IMG/VR virus record: IMGVR_UViG_3300027784_000013 | Coordinates: 1 to 33,231 of that record | Length of the DNA stretch: 33,231 nt | Source: a virus | Reading direction: 5' to 3' (one strand) | Shown here: positions 1,996 through 19,069 of the stretch, piece by piece | How the letters are laid out: each line of letters starts with the position of its first letter | Numbering within the stretch: position 1 is the stretch's first letter | Program-made: the position numbers and the translations under genes | Notes under the pieces: generated by a model | What the model was told of the DNA's origin: nothing | What the model saw: the letters and a program-made list of their open reading frames with translations, nothing else | Databases searched by the model: none

Positions 1996-4900
1996 TTAGT
2001 TTTGCATTTTATCTATCAACTGCAGCGTTTCAAATGCCCGCTGCCTGACCGCTTTAGACTGGTTGTTTTCCAGGATTTCTTCATAGGTTCTTTTGTAGTA
2101 ATTCAAGTTACCCTGCGAGCGTTGAATCATGTTAAGCCTGCCCTTAACGTCTTTTTTCCAGTTGCCCCCGCCGGACAACACGTGTTGCCGTGCTAAGTTA
2201 GAATGGTACCGCCTGATGTTTGCATAAGCATTATCCCTTAATTCATCAGCATCAAGGCCGGCCCTTTTGATTCTTTTCATTACCGCTTGCTCTAATTCAG
2301 CAGGATTCCTCAATAAATCTGTTACCTCAGCTCCCTGCCCCCTGGCTATTTTCCACAGTAAGTCACGGTTAAGTTGGATGGACGGCTGATAATCAGAATC
2401 TATCTGCTGGTGTATGGCAATCTCTAACATGTTGTGCGTTTCTGTCATTCGAGGACTAAAACTGTACCGTTGTGCTAAATGATAGCGATCATCGGCAAAC
2501 TTGCTCATCCCCATTATGGTGGCAAAGTAATGCATGGGATCGTCTATCTTGTGCTTTTCCTCACCGGTAATTGGATCGTATGTCCGGCCTTCGTTTAATA
2601 CTGCCTGTGTTGCCGGGACTAACCTTTTGATTGGATTTCTAAAGGGGGTGAACGAGCCAACTTCATACGCTATTTTTCCTAAAGTATTAACGTCTCCCCG
2701 CATTACATTGCCGATAGTATCAGTAGCATCATCTAAAGTAGAGAAAAAGACCGGCAGCTCCCTGGTTGCATCTTCACCGGCTATCCAGCTTTGTATTGCC
2801 CTTGCACCTTTAGTGACCATATGCCCTTCGCCGGTAGAAAACGGCCCTATGTTCATCTTTAAGCCTACCTGCCTTAAAAGGCCAGCTATAATTAAATAGG
2901 TAGCCATCTGCCCGGCAAACTTACGGGCAAACTCTTCAGTAGCAACACCTCCTGCTTGATTAGACCAGTCCCTTAGCATATTAAAGTAGTTTGTCGGCCA
3001 GGAATGAAACAAGGCTGCCATCCTGCCGGGGGCACTGTGATATATCATCGGCCTGCCGGCACCATAGTCAAACTGCGTGCGGAAAGTTCCTTCGTTAGCT
3101 TCCCTGATAGCATCTCTCATTGGCATACCATCCTCTAAAGATGCCATTAACTTGATAAAGTGAGAAGCTTTAACGTTAGAAACGTCAGCATGCCTGAACA
3201 GAAACATCGATTTATCTACCAGGCCTTGGAATTTATCCACCGGCCCCTTGGGGGTATCATCGAATTTATCTTCCATGTGCTTGTGAGCACCTTCAACCTG
3301 CCTTAAAGCTTCTGTCGGTCGCCTGTCCACCAAGACTTCATTAAACTGCGCTATCTTATTTAACCTGTCCCTGCCTTCAGGAGACATCATCATCTTAAGG
3401 TGCTGGCCTTTTAACCTGAAGCCTCTTAAAGGATCTTCTTTGGTAGATACATCCCAGATCATTCCCACCTGCTGGGTGAAGTTCCTTAACATGGTTGAGG
3501 GAGAAAAGCCCATTGCCTTGCCTACCTCAGCCATTACATACAGCCTGGAATAGTGCTGCAGGGCCTTGGCTGCATCTTCTTCAGATATTTCCTCTTTGCC
3601 GACCATTGTCCTCAGCCGGTTGATAGTGTCTTTCATTAGCCTGCCTTCTTTGAGGCCAGCTTCAGGCATTTTGCCCATAGCAACATCCATCATCGTTCCC
3701 AGGAACTTTGCCTTATTCGGTGTTCGCTGTTTCATTTTCCTGTATTGAGGCATTAAGCTCTTGATGTGAGGTTTAACAAAAGCATTTTTCTGCATAGCAT
3801 TAATGTATATCTGCAGTGCTTCTTTAGCATTGTAGTTGATATTTCCCTTGCTGACCCGGTGCCTGTCTTTAGAGAAAAACTCATGCGGGATTTTATCGGC
3901 ATGCTCGCCCATTTCCCTGTTGCTTTTGTCTAATACAGATAAATGCGGTAAGTAATCATCTATCTTTTGGCCTTTCTTTAACAGGCCAAACTGAACGCCT
4001 TGATCGAATAAGTCAGCAAATATCTTCCTTACTTCTTGTGCTGCATTTTCTTCTCTTTTAGTAATCTTGCCTTCAATTTCATCACGCTTACCATCGACAA
4101 TTTTACCTACTTTAATTAAGCTTTCTTCTTTTAAGCCCTTAAGGGCATCATTGGTTCTTTGATAGAAAGGTTTTGCCCAATCTTCCCCACGCTTCTTTGC
4201 CATCTGCAGGTTACTTCTAATCTTCTGGCCGTGGGGGATTAAGGAAATTAATACATCCAACGATGTGCGGACAGCCCCGATATCGCCATGTTTGTTAATA
4301 TGATCATCTACTGCTTTTAAGTTATATCCCTTGCCGGGGAGACGATGGAAAGTATTTTCGATCATTACTCCAATTACTTCATCGGGATTCTTCTCTAACT
4401 GCCTGAGCAGCTCATCGTCTACCTTTTCACCACGAATCATTTCATGCATTGCCCTGGCAGTAATATGCTCTGTAGATTTTCTTAAGAAATCATAATTAAG
4501 ATCATATCGCTCAGAATAATCTACAATATTCAAGTTGTTTAACATCTTTATATTGCCGGGTTTAAGCAGTTTCTTTTCAACAATACTGGTGACAACATCC
4601 CTGCGGGAAGTGCCAAATATGTTTTGGAAACCTGCATTACTAGCCCTGACATATTCATTGACTAATTTTTCATTGAGCTTTCTTAGCTCTTCATAAGATA
4701 ACCCTCTTACATCTTTTAAGTCTTTTTTGTCCAAAAACTCTCTTGCTATTGTCAGCCGGTTGCTGTTGCCCTCTTCGCCCCATATGTATTCGCCAAGCTT
4801 AATGTTCTTGCTGATCTCTTCTTTCTTCGGGGTGTTGCGGTAAAGCATATGCTTAACGGCCCAATCATATACCGCAACCATGGTCTTGGCTTCACTGAAA

Positions 4901-7900
4901 GTCATCTCCTGCACTTTCTTGTTGCCAAGATTCTGGTATGCTTTAAGCAGATTAGAGGGCAGCTCCGCTTTAAATTCCGGGTTGTTAAGATAACCCTTAA
5001 CAAAACCACGCTTATCTTTAGCATTAATAAAAGCTTGCAAATGAGGACTCTCTAAGTTACTGTTGATATTTCTAAGAACCTTATCAACACCACGCTTAAT
5101 AGTGTCTCTCTGGCCTTGCGATAGATGGCTAAGCAGTGCCCCGCCATCGGTCTGGTAAAGCAACCTATTATCGGGGAAAGGAAGGCTGTCATCAAATACC
5201 TTGTCCCCCTGCAAGTGCTTCCTCATCAGGCGATACATTAATTTGTCCATCTCAGCCTGTTCTTTACCGTAAAGCAGGTGCCTTACTTTTAAAGAATCAG
5301 GTAGCTTATCAGGGTCTGTTTCAAATTGAGTTGATCTGAACTTTGTTGGCATAATGCCATGTGTTTTACCGCCGATTCCAGGTGCCTGCCAAAAACCTTT
5401 AGTGTAAGATAACTCGGCCATATAGTCAGCAAGCCATTCTTTAATCTCTGCATCAGTCTTTGGTTTAGCTCTTTTCTTTTCGTTCCAACCCGACAAGAGC
5501 TTTTCTTTCATCAAGGTATAAGGTCTCTTTTCACCTTTTTCCCCTGGATCAAGCTCCATTAAACGGTGAGTTACTTCGTGAATAATAGTATGCTGCGGTC
5601 TAGGCGTATCAAGATTTAAGTGAATATGCCTACCTAACACCGCACCAGCAAACTCAGGATTGCCGGTCAAGGTAAACTGCAACGTGCTGTCTTTGCCTTC
5701 GGGATCCATTCTCATCCCTAAAGCTTCCGCTATTCTCATAGCAGCACTTTCATTTTTTCTCTGTTCTGGAGTTAATCCTCTGTCATCCCGTGCAGGTTCC
5801 TTTCGAGGTGTGCGAGTTTCTCCTCGTCTGTCCCCTCGAACTTCATGTCCCTCCACAGCCTTGCCTTCTTGGCCACGAACTCCAGGGACTGTGCCTCCGT
5901 AGATTGCTTCGAGATAGGGTTGCAGTGTAGTCTTAACCCATTCTTCAGCTCTATTGCCATCACTATCCCTCCCGTATCTTAATACATGGTCAACCTCACG
6001 AGGTTGCACTTCATATAAATGCCTTTCGCCCTCAGGTACATTATCTTCTATGAACTTTAATCCGTCAGCTTCTGTTCGTGCAAGATATATGCCTGGTCGA
6101 TCAAAGCTGTGAATATCAAGAAACGCTGGTTTTTCAGATGTATCATCATCACGATCCATGCCCATTTGTTGTCGGGCCATAACGATTTCACGCATAGATG
6201 GTTCTTTTACTTCTTCGCCCATCCTTACCACTTCAAATGGATATTGCGCTTTGTCGTGGTTATATTTTAATGCAGCCCTGTGTAATGCATCGCCCTCTAA
6301 AGGTTCTTCGCCTTTCATCCTTCTTTCAAAATTAACTTCCTGCTTTGCTGTTTCATAATCTTTAATGTAGCTTTCAGTATTTTGCCTAAATCGCCCAACC
6401 GTTTCTTCTATATTTTCCGCAAAAGGCTTGCGAGGATATCTGCTTGTAGCATAAAAAGAATGTGTTGCCGGGTCACGAGAAAGATTTAATGCCATTATAT
6501 TATTAAGATCATCCCTGCTTTGCCCGGTATAATCCATCCGTTCATGGACAGCATTCTCCCAATTATGTAATGCCCTGGTTATTTCATGTATAGATTCTAT
6601 TTCTTTAGGATCTGTTATTTTTTTTGCTCTTATATCAGCATGACTTTTTTGAACAAACTCATCTAAGGCTTCTCTACTAATTAAAGGCTGAAAGCTTCGG
6701 CCAACCCCTCGGCCATAATGTAGATCACGCGCACTTACAGGATGATCTAATATATTGCCATCTTCATCTTTCAACCAAACTTTGTATGTGCCTTCGGTTA
6801 ATAACAGTGTTCGTTCTAATTCATTTAGCTCTTCCCAGCTCTTATTAAATCTTTGATATGGTTTTTCAGCACCTATACCCACTTCTTGGACATAATATTT
6901 TTTGGGAGTTAAACCTGTCCTAGTATCATATTCTTGGAAGTATACAGGTACCGGATCGCCTTTTTTATCAACGTCACCAGGTTTAATTAAGCCTCTGGTG
7001 TGCTGTGATATTCTTTCTAAGTCAGCACTGATAGGCTTTACATTATATTCTGGATTAATTATCGGCCGACCCTGTTCATCAATTCTACCACCAATACCAA
7101 TATCATGATATCTAACACCATCTTCACCGACATACCTGCCACTGGTGGTAAACAATATATCAGACGGTTGTTGTCTAGATTCAATTGCTTTAATTTCCCT
7201 TTCGGTTAATACTCCCTTGCGCCCCATATTGTCTAAAAAAGAACGAAATATTACCGGAGGCATATCTTTTATGTTTTTGTAGCTTGCCCACATATCAATA
7301 AGAGATTTGATGTTGCCCGATAATTTCTTGGGCATTACCTCTCTATTTGCATATATCATTTTAGTTAATAAGTCTTTACGTTCATCTACATTTAACTTAT
7401 CCCATTCTTTTTGTAATATGTCCGACTCTCTTTTTATTGTTTTTGGATTTTCTATTGTTCTTTTTGCTGATTCTTTTATTTGTTCATAAGCTTCATTAGT
7501 TCTATTACTTTTATGTAAATTTTCAATAGCTGTATCGGTAAAGCCTGCACTCTTTAATTGCTGGTAATCTTCATAGTCCATCTTTTCATCAATATACCAC
7601 TTTGCTTTTCGTCTATCCCATTCAACCTTACCCTTATCTTTACGCTTTTCAACAGCAACATTTAAGTCTTTACGCATTAAATCAGAACGATCTGTTATTG
7701 GTGAATCATACACATACTGCATTCCATCACGCTTTATTTCACCGGGCACAAGTATTTCAACTTTACCGTCATATAATTCCGGCCTGGTTTGATAGTTTTG
7801 TATTCCATATAGCCTTTCCCTTACATCTGTTAAGACTATGCCCAATGCACCATCAAAATCAAATAGTTTGTTTGTTTCTGCCATTAACTTATTAGCTAGT

Positions 7901-10900
7901 TCAGGGTTTCTTTCTTTGTTAAACTTGGCTAATGCAGCACGTTCCAGGTGGAAAAACTCGTTAAAGAAGTGTTGAGTCATCTCGTGTATTGCTTTTTCTA
8001 CTCTATCGCGATATGTTTCATCTTTTGGAAAGCGTGTTTTTAAATCATCTATTAATTTATTTGCAATAGCATCAATTTCTCTCGATATAACTCTTGCTTC
8101 ATCTCCAGATGCTTTCTGTAATTTATCAAGAAACTCTTTCTGTTTTTCCTTACCTATTCTTCTGCCAAATCCTAATATTCGTGATGCCTGAGCTGCTGCT
8201 TCAAGGTTTTTAAATGTATGCTCCTGTTGCGGGTAACGATCAGGTGTCTTTTTCTTGCTATACTTTGTTATTGATATTTGTCTTTGCCCAAGCTCTAAAC
8301 GTTTTGCCTCTTCTTTTTCGCCTTCTATTCTTGTTCCTGCACTTGAACGTAAGGTTATTGTGCCACTTTCATCATCCCTGCTCATCCACGGCTTATCAGC
8401 AGGCAGCTCATTTATTTCTTCTTTATATTCACGTTTTGGAATTTGTTTATAAGTACTATGTTCTTTTGATTCGCCCTTAATATTTTTACGGTAAGGATTA
8501 AGATATTTATTGGTTTCCTGTTGAGTCTGCTTCCTTGCAGCACCAGTATCTCTGATAGTTGCATCCATATACTGTGATGTTTTCTCGCCGGTAGTAACAT
8601 CGATTAAGTCATAAGTAATTTTCTGCCAGGTTTGCTCGTTAAACTTTTTCTTGTTCATGTCTTTATACTGGCCGGGTATATGGTAAGGCTTCTGAAGATC
8701 TTTGCCTTTAACAGTCTCAACCTTAGTTACCTTAGTGTTAAGCTGATCTCTGCCTTCATCAAGGGTTATTCTTAAAGCAGTACCTGCTTCAACCGGTGTT
8801 TTATCACCAGGTAATATTAGAGCATGAGTGCCATCATGATGTTTGCCTCTTTGTGCTTTATGATCTCCACGAACACCCCTTAAGTCTTTGCCCTTGGTTA
8901 ACAGTTCTGCAGACTTACCATCTTCTGAATATCTAACTTCACCTAATTGTTGTTTACCTTCAGGCTCTTTTTTGTCAGCTTCTTTTTTAGCTGCAGGCTT
9001 CTTGGGGGCTGCTGCAGGTTTAAAACCTTTAACCTTAATATAGGGATTATCTGCAGCAATATAATATTTACCTACCTGATAATCCGCATAATTAACCGGT
9101 CTATGTTGTTTATACAATCTTGTTTGATCTGTTTGTGGTTTATCCTTTAAATTAGCTTCATCGTAATAAGCACCTTTACCTACTTTTTTCTTCCTATCGA
9201 CCATAGGGCCGAAAGCATCTGTATTTAAATGCTTACGTTCAAATTCAATATACGACCCCCTGTCGCCATGCACAATACGATTATACCCTGTGGCTATAGT
9301 ATTACCATCATCTGTTTGTATTTCTTTGTTATCGCCCTCAGTTTTTAAGCCTTCATTCATCTTACCGGGTGTCCTGGTATCAGCTTTGGGGGCAGTTGCT
9401 TCTGGCTTGCCAGCTTCTTTTACATCTTTTGCCGGTTTCTTGTCATCAGTTTTAGGCTTTACATCATCTTTAGGGGCAGCCTCTTTTACCTCAGTAGCTT
9501 CAGGCTTAGCTGTCTTACCGGTCAATTTATTAAGTAAAGCTTCTTCTGCAGTATGGTCTCTTTTGGTGAAACTAAACTCTTCGCCATCATGCTTTTTCTT
9601 TTGTGCAGTTAATACTTCATTTATACGCTTTAAAGCTTCGGTCTTATTGCCACCCTCGGCTTCTTTAATATCCCGGTAAGTTTCTTCTATAACATTTCTG
9701 ATGCTGTCTCTGTCTGCTTTTTCCCCGATCCTTTCAAGATCCTTGACGGCACGGTCAGTAAAGCTGTCTATTTGAGTATTTTCATGTTTATCTAATTCAA
9801 CACGTGTTGTGTCTGTCCGTTCACCAAGTTCTGCTCTATCAGGAGCTTGAATGATAATGTTATTGTACTTATCACGATATTGCCCCATTGTTCTTAATGC
9901 ATCATTTATTGGCTCTACGCTCCTACCATCCCAAGTTTTTGCTATATTTTTAACGTGCGCTTCAATTCGCTTTCCTTCTTCTTTGCTTATTCCATATGTA
10001 GAGGCTGTCTCCCTAAACTTTCTTGCTTCTGAATGTAAGAAGTCGTTAATTCTTTGAACGGCTTCATCCGGCCTATTTTGTTCTATTGCTTGTTTATTTA
10101 GGTGCCTTTCTGCATTATCGAAGATACCTACATCCCTAAAGTTATCTCCAATTTCAAGTAATGTTTTGTTGTCTAATCTTTCTGCAGGCTTATCTTCAGC
10201 AGCAGGACGTTCACCCGTTCTTTGTGCTTCAGCAGTAGGAGTTCTTTCAGCTTCGGGGATTCCTTCCGTTCCTACAGGCTCTTGGCCTGCTTTTTCTGCC
10301 TTATATCTTTCATCTGCTTGAGCTTTTACATCTCGCTCATAAGCAGCCTGAGACTCATAATCATCTCTATTCAAGGTATTCCTTACTTCTTTCTTAATTC
10401 TCTGGTAATCTTTATCCCTTCTGTTAATCTGAATATCTTCAGTTCTTTGAACTCTAGGTTCTTCCCCTGTTCTTGCTGCTGTAACTTCTTGTTCTCTACT
10501 AGGCTCAACACGATCACCTTCTCGTGTCCCCGGTTCAAATATTTCCATGCCCACCCTGCGGGCATCTGCTGTTGCTTCATTCGATAAATCTTTAATTTCT
10601 TGTGGACTGGCCGGCCTTCCTTGTTCATCAAGAATGCCTTGCTTCGCAAATTCTTCTCTTAGCTCAGCAACATTCTGTGCTCTTGCCTGTGCTGCTTTTT
10701 CAGGCACACCATCATTGATTAACTGCTGTCGGTAATTTCTTATATCCCTGTCGGATTTTGTGCTAAGAGACATACCAATATCCATAGCAAGAGCTGGTAT
10801 TATTTGCATTGCTGATTCTACTGTCCAACCATGCTTTTGGATTGCCTCATAATATTCGTTTTGCGTTGAAATAATTAAGTTTAAACCTGTATCAATTAGC

Positions 10901-12417
10901 TTTGTCGGTATATTAGACTTACCAAAACTCCTTGCCATGACCGGGGTAAAGTTGTAAAGCATACCATAAGCTGCAGCTTCCGCCCGATCTTCCAGCTCAC
11001 CGGGAGTAGTTAAATAACGATGAGCAAGGGTTCTTCCAAGCTTTGCCTGCACCTGCGGATTTACTACTGCTTGCTCACCACTTCTGGCTGCAGCATTAAG
11101 CATGGTTTTAGCAAACTGCGGTATTCTTTGACTCTGATTAACCCTATTCAATGCCTGCATCATTCTATTGCCATACTGCGCAAGCTGTCCTGCTCCTCTA
11201 ACTGCAGATGCTTTTGTTCCTGTGCCTTTAGTTAATTTTGTTATAAGAGCCATCTCAGCCATTAAGTGCCCAAGACCCTCAGCCATGTATACAGTATCTA
11301 AGGCAATCCCGGCAACCGGCCCGTAGTTTTCAAATACCTTCTCCCGGTTGTGCATTCTGATAGATTCTGCATACTGCCACATTTGTGGATTTTGCGCTAT
11401 CTCTTCCATTCTATCCCAATTCTTTTCTGCTCTTTGGCCCCAGGATGTTTCGTCTATTGAGAATTCATCTGCAGTAAGAAAATCTACTGTAGTATCAACA
11501 ATCCCTTTTACCGGCTCTATAATATTATCTGTAAAACGTCTGACAAGCGAGTTTTCATCCATGCCGTACTCGATAATTGAATATATTGATTGCTGTATGC
11601 CACCAAGAGCTGATGTAACTGGATAAGCAATTTGCTCCCATAAAGATACATCTTCAGCAGGCTCTACCCCTTCAGCATAAGGGTCAACCCCGATACCGTG
11701 AGCAGGAGTAGTTGCTGCTAAATCAATTCCCTGTTCTGCAAAAGAATCCATCAGGTATTTATATTCTTCTTCAGACGGATCTTCTTTCTCCAGTATTTGC
11801 TTTGCCTGGGAATCAAGGTTTTGCACGACCTCTTGCATTTCCAGTTGACTTACATCACCCTGGAAGGGATCAAGTCCGTATCTTTGTTCTTCTGCAGCTA
11901 TAGCCTGCTCTAAGGTTTCATGGCCCTCGCCGGCAACAAGATAGCCCATTCCCGGCATCGACTCTTTATACTTCTCGTATTCGGTATGGTCATCAAAATC
12001 ATGTATGTCAACATCTTCTGGTTCTGTTTGATATTTTGCCCTTGGTTGCAGTTGGCCGTACTCCAAAACATCATCAATGATGCGCTCTTTTTCTTTTTCG
12101 TGGTCTATTGTGCCAACACCAAACACGAGTTGCGCACGTTCCGGGTTCTCCATCAGCCTGTCCCTGGTATATAGCATAGAATTAATGACAATTTCTTCAG
12201 GGTCATACTGAATACCGGTTCTTTTCATGTGATCTACAGCTTTCCTGGCTGCGGTTTGTTTCAAAGAGTCCCGGTACATTTGCCACCGGTTGGTAGGCTG
12301 TTTTTGCTCTACAGTCCGGTCTTTATGCATAAAGTCATCATACTGTGTTGTCGTTTGCTGCTCAGGTTCTCTGGTTCTATTTAACAACCTGCTTGCAAAA
12401 TTAGTGTTAAGGGCCAT
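1996..12417 (-). CDS. Giant multi-domain virion (ejection) protein with HEVTH metalloprotease motif
   Basis: 3473 residues, about 10.4 kb, one uninterrupted frame. An ATG at 12423 sits only one base from GGAG. The next ATG, at 12417, is seven bases away and is preferred. Visible regions: an N-terminal part with hydrophobic stretches near residues 370-395; Ala/Lys/Pro/Asp-rich linkers near 950-1025 and 1130-1160; a gluzincin-like HEVTH at about 2280-2284 with a possible third ligand in EWLADYMAE about 46 residues later; and a C-terminal part with TMLRNFTQQVG, RTQFDYGAGRP, FHSWPTNYFNMLRDW and a hydrophobic segment near 3170-3190 (MATYLIIAGLLRQVGL). The C-terminus resembles phage 'large polyvalent protein' regions. 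Size, position after two coiled-coil proteins and the podovirus-like order suggest a packaged protein injected with DNA, comparable to T7 gp16 or P22 gp16. Proteolytic activity is inferred from the motif only. A packaged RNA polymerase was considered and not supported. Confidence 0.9.
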   Translation of the reverse strand: MALNTNFASRLLNRTREPEQQTTTQYDDFMHKDRTVEQKQPTNRWQMYRDSLKQTAARKAVDHMKRTGIQYDPEEIVINSMLYTRDRLMENPERAQLVFGVGTIDHEKEKERIIDDVLEYGQLQPRAKYQTEPEDVDIHDFDDHTEYEKYKESMPGMGYLVAGEGHETLEQAIAAEEQRYGLDPFQGDVSQLEMQEVVQNLDSQAKQILEKEDPSEEEYKYLMDSFAEQGIDLAATTPAHGIGVDPYAEGVEPAEDVSLWEQIAYPVTSALGGIQQSIYSIIEYGMDENSLVRRFTDNIIEPVKGIVDTTVDFLTADEFSIDETSWGQRAEKNWDRMEEIAQNPQMWQYAESIRMHNREKVFENYGPVAGIALDTVYMAEGLGHLMAEMALITKLTKGTGTKASAVRGAGQLAQYGNRMMQALNRVNQSQRIPQFAKTMLNAAARSGEQAVVNPQVQAKLGRTLAHRYLTTPGELEDRAEAAAYGMLYNFTPVMARSFGKSNIPTKLIDTGLNLIISTQNEYYEAIQKHGWTVESAMQIIPALAMDIGMSLSTKSDRDIRNYRQQLINDGVPEKAAQARAQNVAELREEFAKQGILDEQGRPASPQEIKDLSNEATADARRVGMEIFEPGTREGDRVEPSREQEVTAARTGEEPRVQRTEDIQINRRDKDYQRIKKEVRNTLNRDDYESQAAYERDVKAQADERYKAEKAGQEPVGTEGIPEAERTPTAEAQRTGERPAAEDKPAERLDNKTLLEIGDNFRDVGIFDNAERHLNKQAIEQNRPDEAVQRINDFLHSEARKFRETASTYGISKEEGKRIEAHVKNIAKTWDGRSVEPINDALRTMGQYRDKYNNIIIQAPDRAELGERTDTTRVELDKHENTQIDSFTDRAVKDLERIGEKADRDSIRNVIEETYRDIKEAEGGNKTEALKRINEVLTAQKKKHDGEEFSFTKRDHTAEEALLNKLTGKTAKPEATEVKEAAPKDDVKPKTDDKKPAKDVKEAGKPEATAPKADTRTPGKMNEGLKTEGDNKEIQTDDGNTIATGYNRIVHGDRGSYIEFERKHLNTDAFGPMVDRKKKVGKGAYYDEANLKDKPQTDQTRLYKQHRPVNYADYQVGKYYIAADNPYIKVKGFKPAAAPKKPAAKKEADKKEPEGKQQLGEVRYSEDGKSAELLTKGKDLRGVRGDHKAQRGKHHDGTHALILPGDKTPVEAGTALRITLDEGRDQLNTKVTKVETVKGKDLQKPYHIPGQYKDMNKKKFNEQTWQKITYDLIDVTTGEKTSQYMDATIRDTGAARKQTQQETNKYLNPYRKNIKGESKEHSTYKQIPKREYKEEINELPADKPWMSRDDESGTITLRSSAGTRIEGEKEEAKRLELGQRQISITKYSKKKTPDRYPQQEHTFKNLEAAAQASRILGFGRRIGKEKQKEFLDKLQKASGDEARVISREIDAIANKLIDDLKTRFPKDETYRDRVEKAIHEMTQHFFNEFFHLERAALAKFNKERNPELANKLMAETNKLFDFDGALGIVLTDVRERLYGIQNYQTRPELYDGKVEILVPGEIKRDGMQYVYDSPITDRSDLMRKDLNVAVEKRKDKGKVEWDRRKAKWYIDEKMDYEDYQQLKSAGFTDTAIENLHKSNRTNEAYEQIKESAKRTIENPKTIKRESDILQKEWDKLNVDERKDLLTKMIYANREVMPKKLSGNIKSLIDMWASYKNIKDMPPVIFRSFLDNMGRKGVLTEREIKAIESRQQPSDILFTTSGRYVGEDGVRYHDIGIGGRIDEQGRPIINPEYNVKPISADLERISQHTRGLIKPGDVDKKGDPVPVYFQEYDTRTGLTPKKYYVQEVGIGAEKPYQRFNKSWEELNELERTLLLTEGTYKVWLKDEDGNILDHPVSARDLHYGRGVGRSFQPLISREALDEFVQKSHADIRAKKITDPKEIESIHEITRALHNWENAVHERMDYTGQSRDDLNNIMALNLSRDPATHSFYATSRYPRKPFAENIEETVGRFRQNTESYIKDYETAKQEVNFERRMKGEEPLEGDALHRAALKYNHDKAQYPFEVVRMGEEVKEPSMREIVMARQQMGMDRDDDTSEKPAFLDIHSFDRPGIYLARTEADGLKFIEDNVPEGERHLYEVQPREVDHVLRYGRDSDGNRAEEWVKTTLQPYLEAIYGGTVPGVRGQEGKAVEGHEVRGDRRGETRTPRKEPARDDRGLTPEQRKNESAAMRIAEALGMRMDPEGKDSTLQFTLTGNPEFAGAVLGRHIHLNLDTPRPQHTIIHEVTHRLMELDPGEKGEKRPYTLMKEKLLSGWNEKKRAKPKTDAEIKEWLADYMAELSYTKGFWQAPGIGGKTHGIMPTKFRSTQFETDPDKLPDSLKVRHLLYGKEQAEMDKLMYRLMRKHLQGDKVFDDSLPFPDNRLLYQTDGGALLSHLSQGQRDTIKRGVDKVLRNINSNLESPHLQAFINAKDKRGFVKGYLNNPEFKAELPSNLLKAYQNLGNKKVQEMTFSEAKTMVAVYDWAVKHMLYRNTPKKEEISKNIKLGEYIWGEEGNSNRLTIAREFLDKKDLKDVRGLSYEELRKLNEKLVNEYVRASNAGFQNIFGTSRRDVVTSIVEKKLLKPGNIKMLNNLNIVDYSERYDLNYDFLRKSTEHITARAMHEMIRGEKVDDELLRQLEKNPDEVIGVMIENTFHRLPGKGYNLKAVDDHINKHGDIGAVRTSLDVLISLIPHGQKIRSNLQMAKKRGEDWAKPFYQRTNDALKGLKEESLIKVGKIVDGKRDEIEGKITKREENAAQEVRKIFADLFDQGVQFGLLKKGQKIDDYLPHLSVLDKSNREMGEHADKIPHEFFSKDRHRVSKGNINYNAKEALQIYINAMQKNAFVKPHIKSLMPQYRKMKQRTPNKAKFLGTMMDVAMGKMPEAGLKEGRLMKDTINRLRTMVGKEEISEEDAAKALQHYSRLYVMAEVGKAMGFSPSTMLRNFTQQVGMIWDVSTKEDPLRGFRLKGQHLKMMMSPEGRDRLNKIAQFNEVLVDRRPTEALRQVEGAHKHMEDKFDDTPKGPVDKFQGLVDKSMFLFRHADVSNVKASHFIKLMASLEDGMPMRDAIREANEGTFRTQFDYGAGRPMIYHSAPGRMAALFHSWPTNYFNMLRDWSNQAGGVATEEFARKFAGQMATYLIIAGLLRQVGLKMNIGPFSTGEGHMVTKGARAIQSWIAGEDATRELPVFFSTLDDATDTIGNVMRGDVNTLGKIAYEVGSFTPFRNPIKRLVPATQAVLNEGRTYDPITGEEKHKIDDPMHYFATIMGMSKFADDRYHLAQRYSFSPRMTETHNMLEIAIHQQIDSDYQPSIQLNRDLLWKIARGQGAEVTDLLRNPAELEQAVMKRIKRAGLDADELRDNAYANIRRYHSNLARQHVLSGGGNWKKDVKGRLNMIQRSQGNLNYYKRTYEEILENNQSKAVRQRAFETLQLIDKMQN

Positions 12418-12441
12418 TATCATGCTCCTATATAAACATAT

Positions 12442-13020
12442 TTATCTTAACAAGCTTCTTTCGTCTCTTTGCCCCGGTTGTCTGCCCCACCCAGGATCTA
12501 TTGCCGTTGCTCTACCTTCTGCAGTTGTTGGCTGTGTTTCACTGGTGCCACCATATAAAGCTTCATCAAAACCATCGAACAAGCCACCATATAAATCTTC
12601 TTGTGCTTGTTTTTCGTGCTCAAATGCCCTTACATTAAGATCGTGTTTTGCCCAATCAAGCGCAGTTGTTTCTTCTTGAGCTGCTGCTGCTGCCTGAAAC
12701 TCCATCCAGGCCAATTCATATTGCCTCTCTTGAATTGCCCTATCAAATGCAAGCCGTTCTGATTGCATTCTTTGTTGCGTGGTTAGCTGCTCCTGGTGCT
12801 GTCTTTCCTGTGAAGCTAACTGCTCTCGCCTGAAAACTAAATCTTCAGCATGCATACGCTCTTGCGATTGCATTCGCTGATGATCCATGGTCTTTGCACC
12901 AGGCTCAAACGGGGGGCTGCCCTCGCTTTGAATCTTTTGCCTTTGCCTGGTTAAAGCATTTAGCTTATCCTGCCATGCAGGGGATCTTTTTGCGGTACGT
13001 TCTTCTTCTGCTTTAGGCAT
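12442..13020 (-). CDS. Gln/Arg-rich coiled-coil virion protein, putative internal (ejection) protein
   Basis: 192 residues. Its ATG overlaps the stop of the upstream gene (TAATG at 13018-13022), so translation is probably coupled. Residues 45-140 are a long charged helix rich in Gln, Glu, Arg and Met (HQRMQSQERMHAED, QERQHQEQLTTQQRMQSERL), a likely coiled coil. The C-terminus contains GLFDGFDEALYGG and then WGRQPGQRDER (residues 178-188). The WGRQPG segment recurs in the CHAP protein at 29434-30639. No enzyme motif is visible. Lying directly before the giant gene, it fits the place of small internal virion proteins of podoviruses. That role is inference from position and composition. Confidence 0.75.
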   Translation of the reverse strand: MPKAEEERTAKRSPAWQDKLNALTRQRQKIQSEGSPPFEPGAKTMDHQRMQSQERMHAEDLVFRREQLASQERQHQEQLTTQQRMQSERLAFDRAIQERQYELAWMEFQAAAAAQEETTALDWAKHDLNVRAFEHEKQAQEDLYGGLFDGFDEALYGGTSETQPTTAEGRATAIDPGWGRQPGQRDERSLLR

Positions 13021-13772
13021 TAATATAACCCCCTACCAAATGTCGCAGGATCAGATGCTGCTTCTTCTGTGGATGCTGTCTCTGTTCCCACCCCAAACCT
13101 GCCGAATATATCAGGCACATCACCGGGGAATTGACCCTTGGCAAGGGCAAGCTGAGTATATAGCTGCAGTTGTTCTACTGGAGTTAACTGTGTCCTGTCA
13201 AAGATACCTAACATGCGATCAAATTGATCACGACTGCCTTCCATCCTGCGCTGGTAATCTAAATCTCTCAGCCTCTGCAGTTCCTGGGCCTGAATCCTTG
13301 CTGCCTGCTCTGCTAACTGCTGTCTTTGCTCAGGCACCTGGCGTTTAATCCTGTTTAATTCCGCAGCTAAAGCATCTGCTTCTGCTGCTTCCCGGTGCCC
13401 TAATTCAGCAAACCTCTGTGAATATTCTCTACCTCTTTCCCTGTCCATATAGTCAACTACACCTGAACGCCCGGTACCCCTGGCAATAGAGCTTTCTAAA
13501 TCCTGCCTGCGCTGTCTTGCTTCCTGGTCGGCAAGCATATCGTATTGTCTTTGGTAATTAGCCTGGGTTCTGCCTAATTGACTTTTGTAGTCTGTTTTGG
13601 CGGTATCAAGCTGACGGTCTAACTCCTGCATCTGCGGCTTTTTGAAGATATCTCTGAAGGTTTCTGCTTTTTTCTTCTTTTCTTCTGCGCTTAATGGTTC
13701 ATAAGCCGGGGTGCTCCATTCAGACCCGTCACCTGAATCGAAAAAATCTCTCGCTGTTTTTTCATCGACCAT
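13020..13772 (-). CDS. Coiled-coil virion protein, putative internal (ejection) protein
   Basis: 250 residues from the ATG at 13772, which lies seven bases after AAGGAGG. A TTG at 13778 is too close to the ribosome site. Residues 30-200 are almost entirely charged helix (AEEKKKKAETFRDIF, QARQRRQDLESSIARGTGRSG, ELNRIKRQVPEQRQQLAEQA), predicted to be a coiled coil with a Gly-rich break near residue 105. The C-terminal 50 residues are less charged (LTPVEQLQLYTQLALAKGQF, then DIFGRFGVG). The architecture is typical of phage internal core or ejection proteins. It is the first of three consecutive genes (this, the 192-residue protein and the giant) that may form one ejection cassette. Confidence 0.75.
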   Translation of the reverse strand: MVDEKTARDFFDSGDGSEWSTPAYEPLSAEEKKKKAETFRDIFKKPQMQELDRQLDTAKTDYKSQLGRTQANYQRQYDMLADQEARQRRQDLESSIARGTGRSGVVDYMDRERGREYSQRFAELGHREAAEADALAAELNRIKRQVPEQRQQLAEQAARIQAQELQRLRDLDYQRRMEGSRDQFDRMLGIFDRTQLTPVEQLQLYTQLALAKGQFPGDVPDIFGRFGVGTETASTEEAASDPATFGRGLY

Positions 13773-13784
13773 GCTCAAACCTCC

Positions 13785-14096
13785 TTACATGTTAAATACA
13801 CCCATGTTATCTAACCTGTCATTTGCCTCTTTAAATCCTTGTGCTATTTCTTCGCTGATTTGCTCGAACATTTCTTCGGTATCTTTTTTAAATTCCTTTA
13901 AATCTTTTTCAAGCTGATCGAACCTTTCTTCGGTATCTTTTTTAAATTCCTTTAAATCTTTTTCTAGCTGATCCAACCTTTTTTGATTAAAGACTATATA
14001 CCTTTCTATCTCGATTAAATCATTGTCCAGTAAAAGAGCAGTATTGTTATCAATGCCGGTTATCCTGTGCGGTAAGTTAAATTTCTTGTCGCTCAT
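13785..14096 (-). CDS. Small coiled-coil protein with duplicated 18-residue helix
   Basis: 103 residues. The start overlaps the stop of the upstream gene as ATGA (14093-14096). After a 30-residue head (NLPHRITGIDNNTALLLDN) the protein is a continuous helix. DQLEKDLKEFKKDTEERF is followed immediately by a second copy ending EEMF, then FEQISEEIAQGFKEANDRLD. Each copy is 18 residues, which is five alpha-helical turns, so identical faces repeat. No catalytic residues are visible. A trimeric or dimeric rod, such as a fibre shaft, needle or connector, is inferred from the coiled coil and from lying between the tail hub and the internal proteins. In P22 the needle gene gp26 also follows the hub gene gp10, so a needle-like role is possible but unproven. 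Confidence 0.75.
   Translation of the reverse strand: MSDKKFNLPHRITGIDNNTALLLDNDLIEIERYIVFNQKRLDQLEKDLKEFKKDTEERFDQLEKDLKEFKKDTEEMFEQISEEIAQGFKEANDRLDNMGVFNM
13866..13973 (-). repeat. 54-bp tandem repeat, two copies, inside the coiled-coil gene
   Basis: Bases 13866-13919 and 13920-13973 are adjacent copies that differ at about two positions. The unit encodes an 18-residue helix. Near-identity at DNA level indicates a recent duplication or ongoing slippage/recombination. Confidence 0.9.
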
Positions 14097-15736
14097 TCAC
14101 TCACCGCCATCCTTCTTTTCGGCTTAAATGGTATCGTTATCCCCCTGATCTCGCATTTGCCTTTGCGCTTGTGCGATATTTTAGGCGATAAATACTGCCA
14201 CCTGTTTGAAACTACATCCATATTATACTCCCTGGTTAAACCCTTGCTGCGGTAGTATTGCAGGTTGTTGTAATTAAGCTCGTTAAACCGCTTGTTGTAA
14301 TCAACGCATACTGCTACTTCCGCTACCTCTTCGGTGTCCGGGGAATCTTGCATGAATAGCTTGCGTGACTTCTTCTCTATTTCAGGCATCCCCATATCGA
14401 AGAACTTGCCTTTCCAGTAAGCTTCAATCGGTTCGCCAAAATCTTCTTCCCCCTGGTCTTGCACGTTTACAAACCCTTTAGTAGTATCACCGGCGTAAAA
14501 TCCTACCCCGGCAGCCTGTCCTTCGTTGTAGAAGCAGTAACAGGAGCCTGCATTACCCGTCATCGGGAAAAAGGCATTGTTCTGGTGGTCATATACCAGC
14601 ACTAAATTATTAACCCTGCTATCTTCATACGGCAGGGAAAAATAAAGCAAATCATTATGTGCTGTTACTGCAGCCTTGTATAAGTATTCATGGTTCACCT
14701 TCGCCCAGGTATCGGGAATTATCTGATCGGATATATTTTGCACATCAGACCCGTTAGTTACGAATATCCCGTATTCAGAAACAAAGAAAACATTCAACCT
14801 GTAGGTGGTTGCTGCTAAAGGCCCCACGCAGCCAATGGTAGAAGATGCCTGGAGCATGCTAAAATCCTCCATTGCTGTACCTTTAAGCACATAAATTGCC
14901 CTGTTTTTAAAGATCATTAAATCATCCATGAACTTTTGAAGGTTAGTTATTTTATCACCATCTGCCTTGTTCACGTCCCAATAATATATAGCCGGCCACA
15001 CTTCCGGCTGAAAAGTTTCCGACCATCTTAAGGTTGAGGGTTCCCTGCTGTCCACACAGAAGATTTTTTCTTTATGCAAAACAGGGTATTTCCCTCTCAT
15101 CGGGGCACCGTGCAGAAAACTAAGCCTGTTGCCGTCCCACTTAAACGGCCTGTCTTTACCGTTCATACCAACCACAAAATGCACTGCATCATCAAAGACA
15201 ACTATTTCTGATGGATCCAAGGGAAATACATCATCGGGGTAAGCATTGAAGATGCACTGGTTAAATAAAGACTTGTTCGGCATGGCCCTGGGGTTGTCTA
15301 CTATCACAAAATGCTCTACGTTGTCTTCTGTGTCTTTTCTGTCATCGTTGAATAAAATCAGGTTGAATAAGGCTGCGTTGAATAAAGAATGTTCTTTGCC
15401 GGCCACGACTGTAATTTCTTTGTTGTAAGCATAATCTATCTCTTCAAACTTATTATCTTCCCACAAATACCCCAGGCCACCGGACATGGCAATTAAGCTG
15501 CTGTCATTAGATTCCCTTGCGTAAAAAGGATGCAGGCCCTGAATATGCGCCGGCAGCTCCCCGGTTATATTGAGCCTAACCTGCCCCTTTCTTTTCGCCA
15601 AGCTGCCAATACGTGTTGCGATAAAATTGCAGCACTCGTACGCTGCACCATCGGGGATTACATTGTTATTTGCTTTTTCCACCTGGCCCTTGCTAAAGCT
15701 TCTGATTTCCCAAGCTTGATAATTTTCTAAGGACAA
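14093..15736 (-). CDS. Beta-propeller-like tail hub / DNA stabilisation protein (P22 gp10-like)
   Basis: 547 residues. A TTG start at 15736 is preceded by GAGGAAG, and no better start lies in frame. The N-terminus (FSKGQVEKANNNVIPDG, then CCNFIATRIGSLAKRKGQ) is the 'IPxGA...C-x-N...GSLxKRxGxxRLN' opening known from podovirus tail hub and nozzle proteins. The rest is beta-rich with repeated Trp/Tyr/Asp strands (SGGLGYLWED, FKWDGNRLSFLHGAPMRG, LRWSETFQPEVWPAIYYW, SEYGIFVTNGSDVQNIS), consistent with propeller blades. The C-terminus is basic. By analogy with P22 gp10 or the T7 nozzle it would close the neck and carry fibres. That assignment is from motif and gene order and not from a database match. 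Confidence 0.75.
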   Translation of the reverse strand: MSLENYQAWEIRSFSKGQVEKANNNVIPDGAAYECCNFIATRIGSLAKRKGQVRLNITGELPAHIQGLHPFYARESNDSSLIAMSGGLGYLWEDNKFEEIDYAYNKEITVVAGKEHSLFNAALFNLILFNDDRKDTEDNVEHFVIVDNPRAMPNKSLFNQCIFNAYPDDVFPLDPSEIVVFDDAVHFVVGMNGKDRPFKWDGNRLSFLHGAPMRGKYPVLHKEKIFCVDSREPSTLRWSETFQPEVWPAIYYWDVNKADGDKITNLQKFMDDLMIFKNRAIYVLKGTAMEDFSMLQASSTIGCVGPLAATTYRLNVFFVSEYGIFVTNGSDVQNISDQIIPDTWAKVNHEYLYKAAVTAHNDLLYFSLPYEDSRVNNLVLVYDHQNNAFFPMTGNAGSCYCFYNEGQAAGVGFYAGDTTKGFVNVQDQGEEDFGEPIEAYWKGKFFDMGMPEIEKKSRKLFMQDSPDTEEVAEVAVCVDYNKRFNELNYNNLQYYRSKGLTREYNMDVVSNRWQYLSPKISHKRKGKCEIRGITIPFKPKRRMAVSE

Positions 15737-15751
15737 AAGAACACTTCCTCG

Positions 15752-16801
15752 CTATAGCGTACTATCAGCAGCTAACCTGCCTGCGCTATCAGTATGACCA
15801 AGCTTATCAACATGATCATCTTTACGCTCACCCATGACCACCCACACGATATCATCACTGCAGCTTTCTTCTGCAGTAATCGTAAACTCAGCACCGCTAA
15901 TATCGCCTGCTTTTACTCTTGTAAAGCCGTTCTTGTTCTGCAGGGAAGTAACCTCTGCATTTTGCACCAGCTCTTCAAAAGTGCCGGCAGCTAAATGCGA
16001 ACTGCTGCCGATATTAACCGTCTTTGTTTCCCCGTCCATCGTCACCTTGCCCCTGAAAACAACTTCATACCGGGGGGCACTGGTTGTGCCGAGCCTTATC
16101 ACTTCCGAGCCGTGGATTGGATGTTCTATTTCGCAAAAACTGGATTTTTTGGTTAAATGCCCTCTTGAGTCTACTTCTGCTATAAGCTTGGCTTGATTGA
16201 TTACCTTGAAAGCAACATCGTTCTGAAACAGGTATGTTTCGTTGTTAAACTTCCACCGGGCTGCCATGCTTCCGTCAGGGCCTCCACGGTTGATAATCCC
16301 ATCCCAGGGGCTGTTCTCAATCTGTTCGGGGATATAAACACCGCCGAAGTCGTCATTAACCTTATCTTCATCTTCTTCATCCACCGGGGCCTCGTCATTG
16401 TGTGCTACCAGGGTCTCGCCGGTAACATTCAATGAGCCGTTGGCACGTATTTCACCATCAACAACCATACTGCCACCGATAGTGCCGCCTGATTCACCGA
16501 TACCGGAAACGTCTTTGACAATATCGGCTAAGCGATTCAAGTAAACAGCAGTAATCCGGTTTGCTACTTCGGCCCCGGCAGAATGTGCTTCGGCAGAAGT
16601 GCCATCGTAACCACGCTCTAAATCGGTAAAGGTGTTGCTTTCTCTTTTCCCTACCAGGATAATTTCATTGTCGATAGAGACCGTAAAGGGGCCGTCTGGA
16701 GGGAACGAATCACCGTTGCTTACGATGATAGATTCCGATATCTCACTAACGCTATCAGCCAGGGTTGATATGCCCCGGTTAGATGCTCTTAATGGCTTCA
16801 T
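15752..16801 (-). CDS. Tail fibre-type protein B
   Basis: 349 residues, ATG at 16801 behind AGAGGTG. Residues 5-90 form a module (SFPPDGPFTVSIDNEIILVG, ERGYDGT, VANRITAVYLN) that also opens the upstream gene product. A Gly-rich stretch (residues 97-130) and an acidic linker (DEEDEDKVNDD) lead to FGGVYIPEQIENSPWDGIIN at 152-171. The C-terminal about 110 residues (EIEHPIHGSEV, SAPRYEVVFRGKV, GTFEELVQNAEV, VWVVMGERKDD) match a recurrent phage tail-fibre C-terminal domain ('HPL...APRYDLIYRGK...GTFdxL...W-x-V-x-x-ERkD'). It is a shorter paralogue of the upstream fibre gene and lacks the central repeats. It is probably a virion appendage protein. Confidence 0.8.
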   Translation of the reverse strand: MKPLRASNRGISTLADSVSEISESIIVSNGDSFPPDGPFTVSIDNEIILVGKRESNTFTDLERGYDGTSAEAHSAGAEVANRITAVYLNRLADIVKDVSGIGESGGTIGGSMVVDGEIRANGSLNVTGETLVAHNDEAPVDEEDEDKVNDDFGGVYIPEQIENSPWDGIINRGGPDGSMAARWKFNNETYLFQNDVAFKVINQAKLIAEVDSRGHLTKKSSFCEIEHPIHGSEVIRLGTTSAPRYEVVFRGKVTMDGETKTVNIGSSSHLAAGTFEELVQNAEVTSLQNKNGFTRVKAGDISGAEFTITAEESCSDDIVWVVMGERKDDHVDKLGHTDSAGRLAADSTL

Positions 16802-18475
16802 TTATCGCACCTCTTTCTTATGCCTGCAATAGCCTTTTTTGCCTTTTTGTTCTTGCTCTAAATTAATTTCTTTATCATAAGACAGATCGGGAGCTTCCTC
16901 TTTTTCCACTTCAGGAATTAACTGACCCTGATCATCAGTGCGCTTTGAGTCCATGATAAAGTCATCTGCCCTTTCTGCCATTACTGCCCAGGCAACTTCG
17001 TTATTGCTCTCTGAGTTCTCGCAGATTATTTTAAACTTGCCCTTTTCAATCGGTTTTGATTTAACCCTATCGAAGCTGTCTAAGTTATTTAAAAACATTA
17101 CTTCTGCGTTTTGAGTCAGCTTATCAAAGGTGCCTTTACTCATGTTGCTTGCTTCGTCTATATCTACCTCTGCTTCGCCGTTTTGCAAAGCGATCTTGCC
17201 CCTGTAAATAAGGTCGTACCGGGGAGCCTCCACGAAACCGTGGTAAAGATCCTTTTCTTCAGGCTCTAAGGGGTGATCGATAAGAAAGTTGCCGCTACTC
17301 TTGAACAGCTCGCCGTCTACCTGTAAATCATCGTAAACCCGGCAATAACCGCCATCCTCTGCAATAAATGCAGTGCCACCACTAAATGTAACACGGAAAA
17401 CACTTGAATCTTGGCGCAAATAACAATGATTATCGAATTTCCACCTTGCACCTACGCTGCCAGACGGGCCACCCCGATTAATAATCCCGTCCCATGGACT
17501 TGAGTCCATCTGATCAGGAATAAATACACCACCAAAACTGCTGTTTACCGAAGAACCGCTTCTTGGGCTGTTGAAGTTATGGCCCAGCACTGTATCGCAA
17601 GAAACATCTAAGCTGCTGGTAAATGAACAGTTGGCAATCATTAAGTCAGTATCTAGCAGGTCTGAATAAATTGAGCCTGCCTTGATTAAACCTGTCCTGA
17701 TATAACCATCGTCAATGATCGTCCCGTAACTCGTCACCTGGCTCATCATATCGCTGTAATTGTCATAACCTAATCTATTTGCTAGGTCGTTTCTTGCTTC
17801 ATTCCTGGCCGAAGTAGCCTTGCTTGAAGCACCAGCAGGGGTTTCTTTCTCGGAAGGGTCGTAACCCGAATCAAAATTAACATCACTGCCAATATGGATC
17901 ATACTGGTTTTAATAAAACCGCCGACAATGATAGTCTCATCTTTCATAGCCTGCTCTACGCTTTCATAGTAGGCCACCTGCCCGACATCATCTTGATCCA
18001 CCTTTTCTAATGGGCTAAACCCTTCGGCAAATTCAGTCATGCCGTCAATGCGGATCATGTTGGTATTGATAAAACCACCGCTAATGATCGTTTCGCCAAG
18101 CTGCGCTGCCTCAATTAAATCAGCATACGCTACATCACCTAAATCATCTTTGAGGCCATCTATTTCTTCTGTTACCTTGTATTCTAAGTAATCATTGATA
18201 TTGTTAATATAACCGGCCACTATCTTGTTGGCTACCTGGGATTCAGCTTCATGGGTTGCTGTTTCAGTATTGTCTGCTCCCCGGCCATTTGCTGCGATAT
18301 GAAACGTATTGCCATCACGACCGCTTAATAGAATTATCTCATTGTCTATCGATACAAAAAAATTCCCCTCTGCGGGGAAAGCACTACCGTCAACCACATC
18401 AAAGCTGCCCGTTTCTGAATCAGGCAATTCATGGATTAGCTTGGTAATTGCCCGGTTTGCTGCAAATATTCTCAT
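16802..18475 (-). CDS. Tail fibre-type protein A (longer paralogue)
   Basis: 557 residues, ATG at 18475 behind TAGGTGA. Its stop directly abuts the ATG of fibre B. Residues 5-95 hold the shared N-terminal module (FFVSIDNEIILLSGRDGNTF). Three copies of an ETII-x-GGFI-x-T-x-x-I pattern follow at about 128-143, 180-195 and 251-266, of a kind seen in tail-tip and fibre shafts. FGGVFIPDQMDSSPWDGIIN (314-333) and the C-terminal domain at 397-503 (DHPLEPEEKDLYHG, APRYDLIYRGKI, GTFDKLTQNAEV, VAWAVMAERADD) align with fibre B. The last about 45 residues are a charged extension ending CRHKKEVR. A and B are tandem duplicates. A gained, or B lost, the repeat-bearing middle. Confidence 0.8.
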   Translation of the reverse strand: MRIFAANRAITKLIHELPDSETGSFDVVDGSAFPAEGNFFVSIDNEIILLSGRDGNTFHIAANGRGADNTETATHEAESQVANKIVAGYINNINDYLEYKVTEEIDGLKDDLGDVAYADLIEAAQLGETIISGGFINTNMIRIDGMTEFAEGFSPLEKVDQDDVGQVAYYESVEQAMKDETIIVGGFIKTSMIHIGSDVNFDSGYDPSEKETPAGASSKATSARNEARNDLANRLGYDNYSDMMSQVTSYGTIIDDGYIRTGLIKAGSIYSDLLDTDLMIANCSFTSSLDVSCDTVLGHNFNSPRSGSSVNSSFGGVFIPDQMDSSPWDGIINRGGPSGSVGARWKFDNHCYLRQDSSVFRVTFSGGTAFIAEDGGYCRVYDDLQVDGELFKSSGNFLIDHPLEPEEKDLYHGFVEAPRYDLIYRGKIALQNGEAEVDIDEASNMSKGTFDKLTQNAEVMFLNNLDSFDRVKSKPIEKGKFKIICENSESNNEVAWAVMAERADDFIMDSKRTDDQGQLIPEVEKEEAPDLSYDKEINLEQEQKGKKGYCRHKKEVR

Positions 18476-18487
18476 GTTTTATTTCAC

Positions 18488-19069
18488 CTACCACCTTAAA
18501 TTTACTGTAAAACTGCCCTGGTAATGCTGATCCTCGTTATCCACAAACAGGTGCAACAGCCTCATTTTTTCCTGCTGCCACATTTCAAACAAGGGGCTGT
18601 TTAGCTCCATGTAAATCTGCCTTAATGCATAAGCAACCATGTATTCTGCTGCACCCTCTATGCTCGGCTCATCATCATCTTCAGTTAACTTCTCAGGATG
18701 AGGGATGTATTCGATTATCGCCGTATCTTCTACCCTCGGTATCGGCCATAGATATAATTTACCCTGCCTTACGTAATAAGAACGCGGTTCTCCGTATTCT
18801 TTTCGCTTCATTTCCCGGTTTAAATCTTTGAGTTCGATGCCCCTTTCGCCTATATAAGCATTAACCAGCTTTAATAAATCTTCGGGAAAAGGTATATTTT
18901 CCTGTTCCGGTTCTATTTCTACCTCTACTGTTTCTTTTTTGTGCGAATACCCGGTCAATTCTTTTTGCCCGTTGTTGAGAAGCTCGATAATATCATAGTC
19001 CCCGTACCGGTCGGGAGGCACATCTACCAGGGCCCTCCTGACCCTGCCGATCATATCTTTTAGCTGCAT
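18488..19069 (-). CDS. Head-tail adaptor-like (neck) protein 2
   Basis: 193 residues. ATG at 19069 overlaps the upstream stop (TAATG). The sequence YGDYDIIELLNNGQKELTGY, followed by a strand and FPEDLLKLVNAYIGERG, then YYVRQGKLYLWPIP, IIEYIPHPEKL and a C-terminal helix (AAEYMVAYALRQIYMEL), follows the pattern of phage head-to-tail adaptor or tail-tube proteins of podoviruses: helical ends around a small beta domain with 'LP-x-D-x-x-x-L' and 'L-x-x-x-P' strands. It would sit under the portal. The same general plan is seen in the upstream 350-residue protein. The exact equivalent (P22 gp4 or T7 gp11) cannot be fixed from sequence reading alone. Confidence 0.7.
   Translation of the reverse strand: MQLKDMIGRVRRALVDVPPDRYGDYDIIELLNNGQKELTGYSHKKETVEVEIEPEQENIPFPEDLLKLVNAYIGERGIELKDLNREMKRKEYGEPRSYYVRQGKLYLWPIPRVEDTAIIEYIPHPEKLTEDDDEPSIEGAAEYMVAYALRQIYMELNSPLFEMWQQEKMRLLHLFVDNEDQHYQGSFTVNLRW

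Follow-up and report, generated by a model that had tools for sequence, protein, structure and literature searches.

The DarB-like or PLxRFG proteins (PHROG 10089) include those of Klebsiella phage LASTA (4433 aa), Erwinia phage Pavtok (5007 aa), Pseudomonas phage Skulduggery (3695 aa), Microcystis phage Mwe-JY07 (4985 aa), Agrobacterium phage Atu_ph08 (4877 aa) and Sinorhizobium phage PBC5. The podoviruses LASTA, Pavtok, Skulduggery, Mwe-JY07, Atu_ph08, Y7 and those of the JC1/Bcep22 type encode proteins of 3700–5000 aa in the same genomic setting as the gene described here. An HExxH motif lies about 1050–1350 residues from the end in many PLxRFG giants, and an SPx5NxTQ motif is present in about half of them. 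Mass spectrometry of virions purified on CsCl detected JC1 gp69 (4515 aa) through 51 unique peptides (PMC9144972). Polyvalent proteins have been defined as large proteins with several unrelated domains, at least one of them catalytic, encoded next to late structural genes, and the commonest domain of the class is a zincin-like metallopeptidase (MPTase) in which HExxH is followed by a helix bearing a Glu (Iyer et al. 2017, PMC5512222). The virion RNA polymerases (vRNAPs) of N4-like phages lack cysteine, which has been explained by passage through the tail and periplasm (PMC3715699, PMC2784036), and Cys-free giant vRNAPs are present in the particles of LUZ7 and LIT1/PEV2 (PMC3715699); we found no such statement on the DarB-like giants in the papers searched.

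The window, by which we mean the whole stretch of DNA analysed, is a 33,231-bp IMG/VR virus record that its ends class as linear and possibly a fragment. All of its recognised genes are on the minus strand and follow podovirus structural order: a CHAP protein, terminase, portal, capsid, adaptor, two fibre-like proteins, nozzle, three small Cys-free proteins, and the 3473-aa product that we call the giant. The 401-aa protein encoded directly upstream of the terminase (29434–30639) has a CHAP peptidase/amidase domain (PF05257, E 7e-13) and is likely an endolysin or virion hydrolase. The head module is mosaic, in that a terminase large subunit (27950–29434) with many matches to phages known as N4-like is combined with a P22-like portal (23849–26080; PF16510, phrog_156) and a major capsid protein of another family (21085–21981; phrog_371, PF10124). 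These are followed by a head-tail adaptor (18488–19069; PF24175 SU10 adaptor, phrog_399), two adjacent and paralogous tail fibre-like genes (15752–18475; common matches phrog_17834 and phrog_7578), and a tail nozzle or 'internal virion protein' in the family of PBC5 gp17 (14093–15736; phrog_3287, 511 and 578). The three small Cys-free proteins are a 103-aa coiled-coil protein with an internal near-repeat (13785–14096), a 252-aa coiled-coil-like protein (13020–13778), and a 192-aa Q/E-rich, coiled-coil-like protein (12442–13020); all three are candidate ejection partners of the giant, the last from its position and composition. Three further small genes follow the giant at 453–1990, and one of their products (136 aa, 1580–1990) matches phrog_23562, a family with no assigned function.

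This order agrees with the initial annotation, which had placed the giant at the position of podovirus ejection proteins. JC1 gp69 and Bcep22 gp75 are in the same size class and are preceded by the same order of portal, capsid, fibres, head closure and small genes, the likeness being one of annotation. PBC5 has the same nozzle and adaptor families as the window; its phrog_511 nozzle gene is followed by genes for two Cys-free virion proteins of about 400 aa, and its giants, encoded on the other strand, adjoin the structural cluster. The giants of Pavtok and Skulduggery come directly after Cys-free proteins. T7 gp14, gp15 and gp16 likewise follow the nozzle as a run of Cys-poor proteins, a small one first and large ones after it, but the giant has no detectable sequence similarity to any of the three, no match to phrog_342 (the gp16 family) or to a lytic transglycosylase domain, and is 2.6 times longer than gp16. 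It is gp16-like by position, and by sequence is not a member of the gp16 family. Its size is indeed far above that of T7 gp16 (1318 aa), as originally remarked, but is not exceptional, since giants of 3500–5000 aa are known.

The giant gene occupies 1996–12417 on the minus strand, or 31% of the window. Of two candidate start codons, only the ATG at 12417 has a well-spaced AGGAG (7-nt spacer), giving a product of 3473 aa; counted from the upstream ATG at 12423 the open reading frame is 3475 aa, and residue numbers of parts of the giant are given from that codon. On the plus strand, translation of this interval runs into stops throughout. The virus has also been assembled a second time, as the 13.4-kb contig PWHN01000047.1 from MAG T1Sed10_126, which is 99.93% identical over 13,412 bp and contains the same 3475-aa frame with eight nucleotide and five amino acid differences and no indel. 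Because the frame is intact in both assemblies it is not an assembly artefact, and the gene is confirmed as real and intact; the initial description of an uninterrupted 3473-residue frame covering about a third of the window agrees with the open reading frame, the ribosome-binding site and the second assembly. The sample name T1Sed10 points to sediment of Tanatar-1, a Siberian soda lake saturated with salt (PMC6146748, PMC6704655). PWHN01000047.1 is a viral contig that was binned into a bacterial MAG in the GTDB genome set, which is no proof of host. It stops within the 103-aa gene, at a 59-bp near-repeat (95% identical) at 13861–13973.

Three colinear blocks in the C-terminal part of the giant are common to it and to DarB-like/PLxRFG proteins of 2500–5000 aa (LASTA, Pavtok, PBC5, Atu_ph08). 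The conserved core of the C-terminal domain (residues 3064–3200; 2824–3234, minus strand) is the region in which all seven of the reference giants found by blastp are matched, with a best E value of 2e-4. PHROG 10089, 'DarB-like antirestriction', also matches the giant (E 2e-4), at positions 4258–4359 of the 4647 in the profile and hence near its C terminus, and a family profile built from 61 dereplicated members on viral contigs together with phage giants gives it 26.2 bits, a score that none of 200 shuffles approached (5.0 bits at best). By hhalign the blocks are an HExxH segment (2267–2294), a segment containing SPSTMLRNFTQ (2970–2988), and the core (3071–3182; E 1.7e-5), and nothing comparable was seen in the reversed sequence or elsewhere in the giant. 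The SPSTMLRNFTQ block (residues 2974–2984; 3472–3504, minus strand) is the equivalent of SPAAAxVNLTQ in giant PLxRFG proteins. It lies 502 residues from the end of the giant, compared with 480–512 in the reference giants that carry it, and 142 residues separate SPx5NxTQ from FDY, compared with 142–144 in Atu_ph08 and Mwe-JY07. This motif is present in 39 of 80 family members and turns up in 0.4% of shuffled sequences by chance. The C terminus, which had struck the initial annotation as conserved-looking, is thus borne out by blastp, the HMM, phrog_10089 and hhalign.

The window giant shares its C terminus with those DarB-like/PLxRFG giants that were compared, and resembles the class in lying next to the end of the structural module, in size, in near-zero cysteine content and in the C-terminal core; it differs in its unrelated N-terminal 2200 residues, in a small domain described below, and in having no recognised methylase, helicase or transglycosylase. 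The initial annotation had raised the prospect of a match over the whole length to an already characterised giant; what we find is homology limited to the last ~1200 residues, at about 20% identity, and residues 1–2200 have no detectable relative except that small domain. The literal PLxRFG motif, which in PLxRFG giants is about 685 residues from the end, is absent; a sequence at a similar distance, IDDYLPHL (about residue 2821), is not that motif. We therefore file the giant as a distant relative and not as a strict PLxRFG protein. LPD39 has no match in it, although the same Pfam library detects LPD39 in the LASTA giant and ART-PolyVal and LPD23 in the giant of F116. The name 'LPD38' for the C-terminal core was dropped, as Pfam has no match for the C-terminal domain of the family, and in LASTA the domain that Pfam recognises upstream is LPD39. 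A search of viral contigs for closer relatives found none. On these alignments the giant is best described as a very distant new member of the known DarB-like/PLxRFG polyvalent proteins, not a new kind of protein.

The first of the three blocks corresponds to a zincin-like metallopeptidase motif region (residues 2260–2343; 5395–5646, minus strand) with HEVTH at residues 2282–2286, 1194 residues from the end as in Skulduggery. Glu 2326, 2329 or 2337 is a candidate third ligand. An HExxH arises anywhere in 17% of shuffles and within a 200-residue range at that distance from the end in 0.9%, and the block alone is weak (hhalign probability 5.8%), though colinear with the polyvalent giants. A hairpin, an active-site helix and a Glu-bearing helix are predicted around HEVTH, with pLDDT of about 69–73 for the hairpin and first helix and lower values beyond; this modelled local hairpin-helix-helix arrangement is typical of zincins. 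The putative peptidase may release effector domains. Set beside the definition of polyvalent proteins, the giant has the late position and size, one small domain and the zincin motif, and no catalytic domain at curated thresholds.

That small, uncharacterised domain, which we call YADY (residues 1046–1124, about 90 aa; 9052–9288, minus strand; tblastn 38.5%, E 7e-4), is aligned with 14 invariant columns to small proteins of the jumbo phages Vibrio pVa-21, Salmonella SPFM and SPLA, Vibrio XC31, Lak megaphages and LR756500, and is also present in short open reading frames on a few bacterial MAG contigs. The pVa-21 protein (L044:7860-8789) combines it with a YAcAr SLOG domain (E 2e-5, short of the Pfam cut-off), a hint of a nucleotide-related function. 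Scans of the whole giant and of its pieces against Pfam, PHROGs and PDB gave, besides phrog_10089, only chance-level matches to A2M_bMG2, DUF4777 and DUF7553; Pfam and PHROGs revealed no transglycosylase, methylase, helicase or ART domain, and no peptidoglycan hydrolase domain was recognised. The impression that the middle of the protein resembles nothing familiar thus holds for most of residues 600–2200 in Pfam, PHROGs and PDB; this part may, as was suggested, hold undescribed enzyme domains. What the analysis brought to light in the protein is the uncharacterised YADY domain and the zincin-like motif. AlphaFold models had mean pLDDT of 44 (residues 2236–3420, 33 sequences) and 42 (1430–2190, single sequence), too low for them to be read in a fold search. 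Residues 1–600 (10624–12423, minus strand), for which no homologue was found, are a candidate envelope-spanning part on hydropathy, with the longest hydrophobic or amphipathic helices at 260–320, 370–390 and 483–553. Hydrophobic patches had been reported before; they are present (mainly residues 260–560 and 3175–3195 on the Kyte-Doolittle scale) but modest, the best 19-residue segment averaging 1.17.

There is no cysteine among the 3475 residues of the giant, compared with a mean of 0.76% in the other proteins of the window (p about 3e-12). Across the PLxRFG family we count 24 cysteines in 204,081 residues from 80 members, which are related and mostly truncated by the locus and so do not amount to 80 independent tests; at 0.012%, compared with 1.06% in flanking open reading frames, this is about 90-fold lower in this data set. 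Exclusion of cysteine is a property of the PLxRFG giant class. It extends to other proteins, with zero cysteines in N4 gp50, gp51 and gp52, in T7 gp15 and gp16, and in the proteins of about 400 aa encoded beside the giants of PBC5, Pavtok, Skulduggery and Atu_ph08, whereas T7 gp13 and gp14 have three and one, the nozzle-position proteins of PBC5 and Atu_ph08 four and six, and both fibre-like genes of the window encode some. Cysteine is also missing from the N4 capsid protein and from several more proteins of the window, so its absence is not an exclusive mark, particularly in short proteins. F116 (L056:4688-16049) and PBC5 (L054:835-16583) have the giant divided between two adjacent open reading frames; in F116 the methyltransferase-bearing half has four cysteines and the PLxRFG half one. 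Cysteine depletion suggests itself as an inexpensive predictor, open to test, of which proteins pass through a phage tail. We tentatively propose, at somewhat less than even confidence, that residues 600–2200 comprise several undescribed injected effector domains, of which YADY, elsewhere a free-standing small protein of jumbo phages, is the first recognisable, and that near-total cysteine exclusion is a general mark of tail-passing proteins, by which injected proteins not yet described could be recognised in sequence data alone.

Taken with gene order, C-terminal homology and composition, the giant is very probably a virion-carried, ejected 'polyvalent' podovirus protein in the slot of T7 gp16, N4 gp50 and JC1/Bcep22 gp69/gp75. 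By analogy with JC1, N4, T7 and the polyvalent-protein analysis (PMC5512222), it would share the capsid with its small Cys-free neighbours, leave through the portal and tail nozzle as an unfolded chain, and refold in the envelope and cytoplasm. The conserved C-terminal third, with its zincin motif, SPx5NxTQ and PLxRFG-type core, would serve in packaging or transport and perhaps self-cleavage, while the fast-evolving N-terminal two thirds would provide envelope-crossing helices and effector domains acting on the host before phage genes are expressed. Giant injected polyvalent proteins would now extend to a deep, uncultivated podovirus lineage. A rather unlikely alternative is that the giant is mainly a trans-envelope conduit like T7 gp15/gp16, its extra length being structural and no effector activity present. 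A predicted structure that is mostly helical, strongly charged stretches and amphipathic helices near the N terminus would suit a conduit, as would the one or two Cys-free proteins of about 600–1950 aa, unrelated in sequence, at the site in relatives of the phage; YADY, however, is a small domain that moves independently and also occurs in unrelated jumbo phages, and both such a domain and a zincin motif region that is colinear with those of polyvalent proteins are typical of effector-carrying giants.

The other readings fare less well against the same evidence. A narrow DarB reading, in which the giant is an anti-restriction protein whose methylase and helicase domains protect phage DNA from type I restriction, seems improbable: the C-terminal core is common to it and to proteins annotated as DarB-like, but neither Pfam nor PHROGs gives a methylase or helicase match, domains that do appear in the annotation of relatives, and in most of these phages the DarB name is itself an annotation transfer. 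An external tail or adhesion protein might be expected from the location downstream of two fibre-like genes, a reading made highly improbable by the lack of any fibre-type match, by the contrast between a Cys-free giant and two Cys-containing fibre-like products, and by C-terminal homology to podovirus giants, one type of which (JC1) has been found in virions. An N4-type vRNAP that transcribes early genes after ejection is closely resembled in outline, with a similar size (3473 and 3500 aa), position at the end of the cluster, zero cysteine, a terminase with many N4-like matches, and, within the C-terminal third, an HExxH (1194 residues from the end, compared with 1273 in N4 gp50), but N4 gp50 has a single-subunit RNA polymerase domain (motifs T/DxxGR, A, B and C) and the giant has none. 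A 10-member vRNAP profile gave it a negative score in every run (−1.9 bits for the full profile), whereas distant vRNAPs left out in turn scored 331–771 bits, and hhalign found nothing in any part of it; the polymerase reading was rejected at the sequence level, and we give it almost no weight.

The site itself is variable. The capsid protein has a 43%-identical relative on contig G009, the closest capsid relative, and the G009 capsid led to 68 further loci. Near the end of the structural cluster, G009 and G016 have large Cys-free open reading frames (1546 and 1949 aa), and G011 and G013 have pairs of about 1000 and 600–700 aa, none with similarity to the window giant; the 1546-aa protein of G009 weakly matches phrog_10089 and the T7 gp16 family phrog_342. 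The Cys-free open reading frames of capsid relatives (L063, L140, L142, L143, L147) fall into several unrelated families, most of them without a Pfam or PHROG match. The same site in related phages is thus filled by unrelated Cys-free proteins and, since these are non-homologous, it seems to hold ejection proteins that are replaced wholesale. The nozzle protein of the window is kept in G009 at 36% identity.
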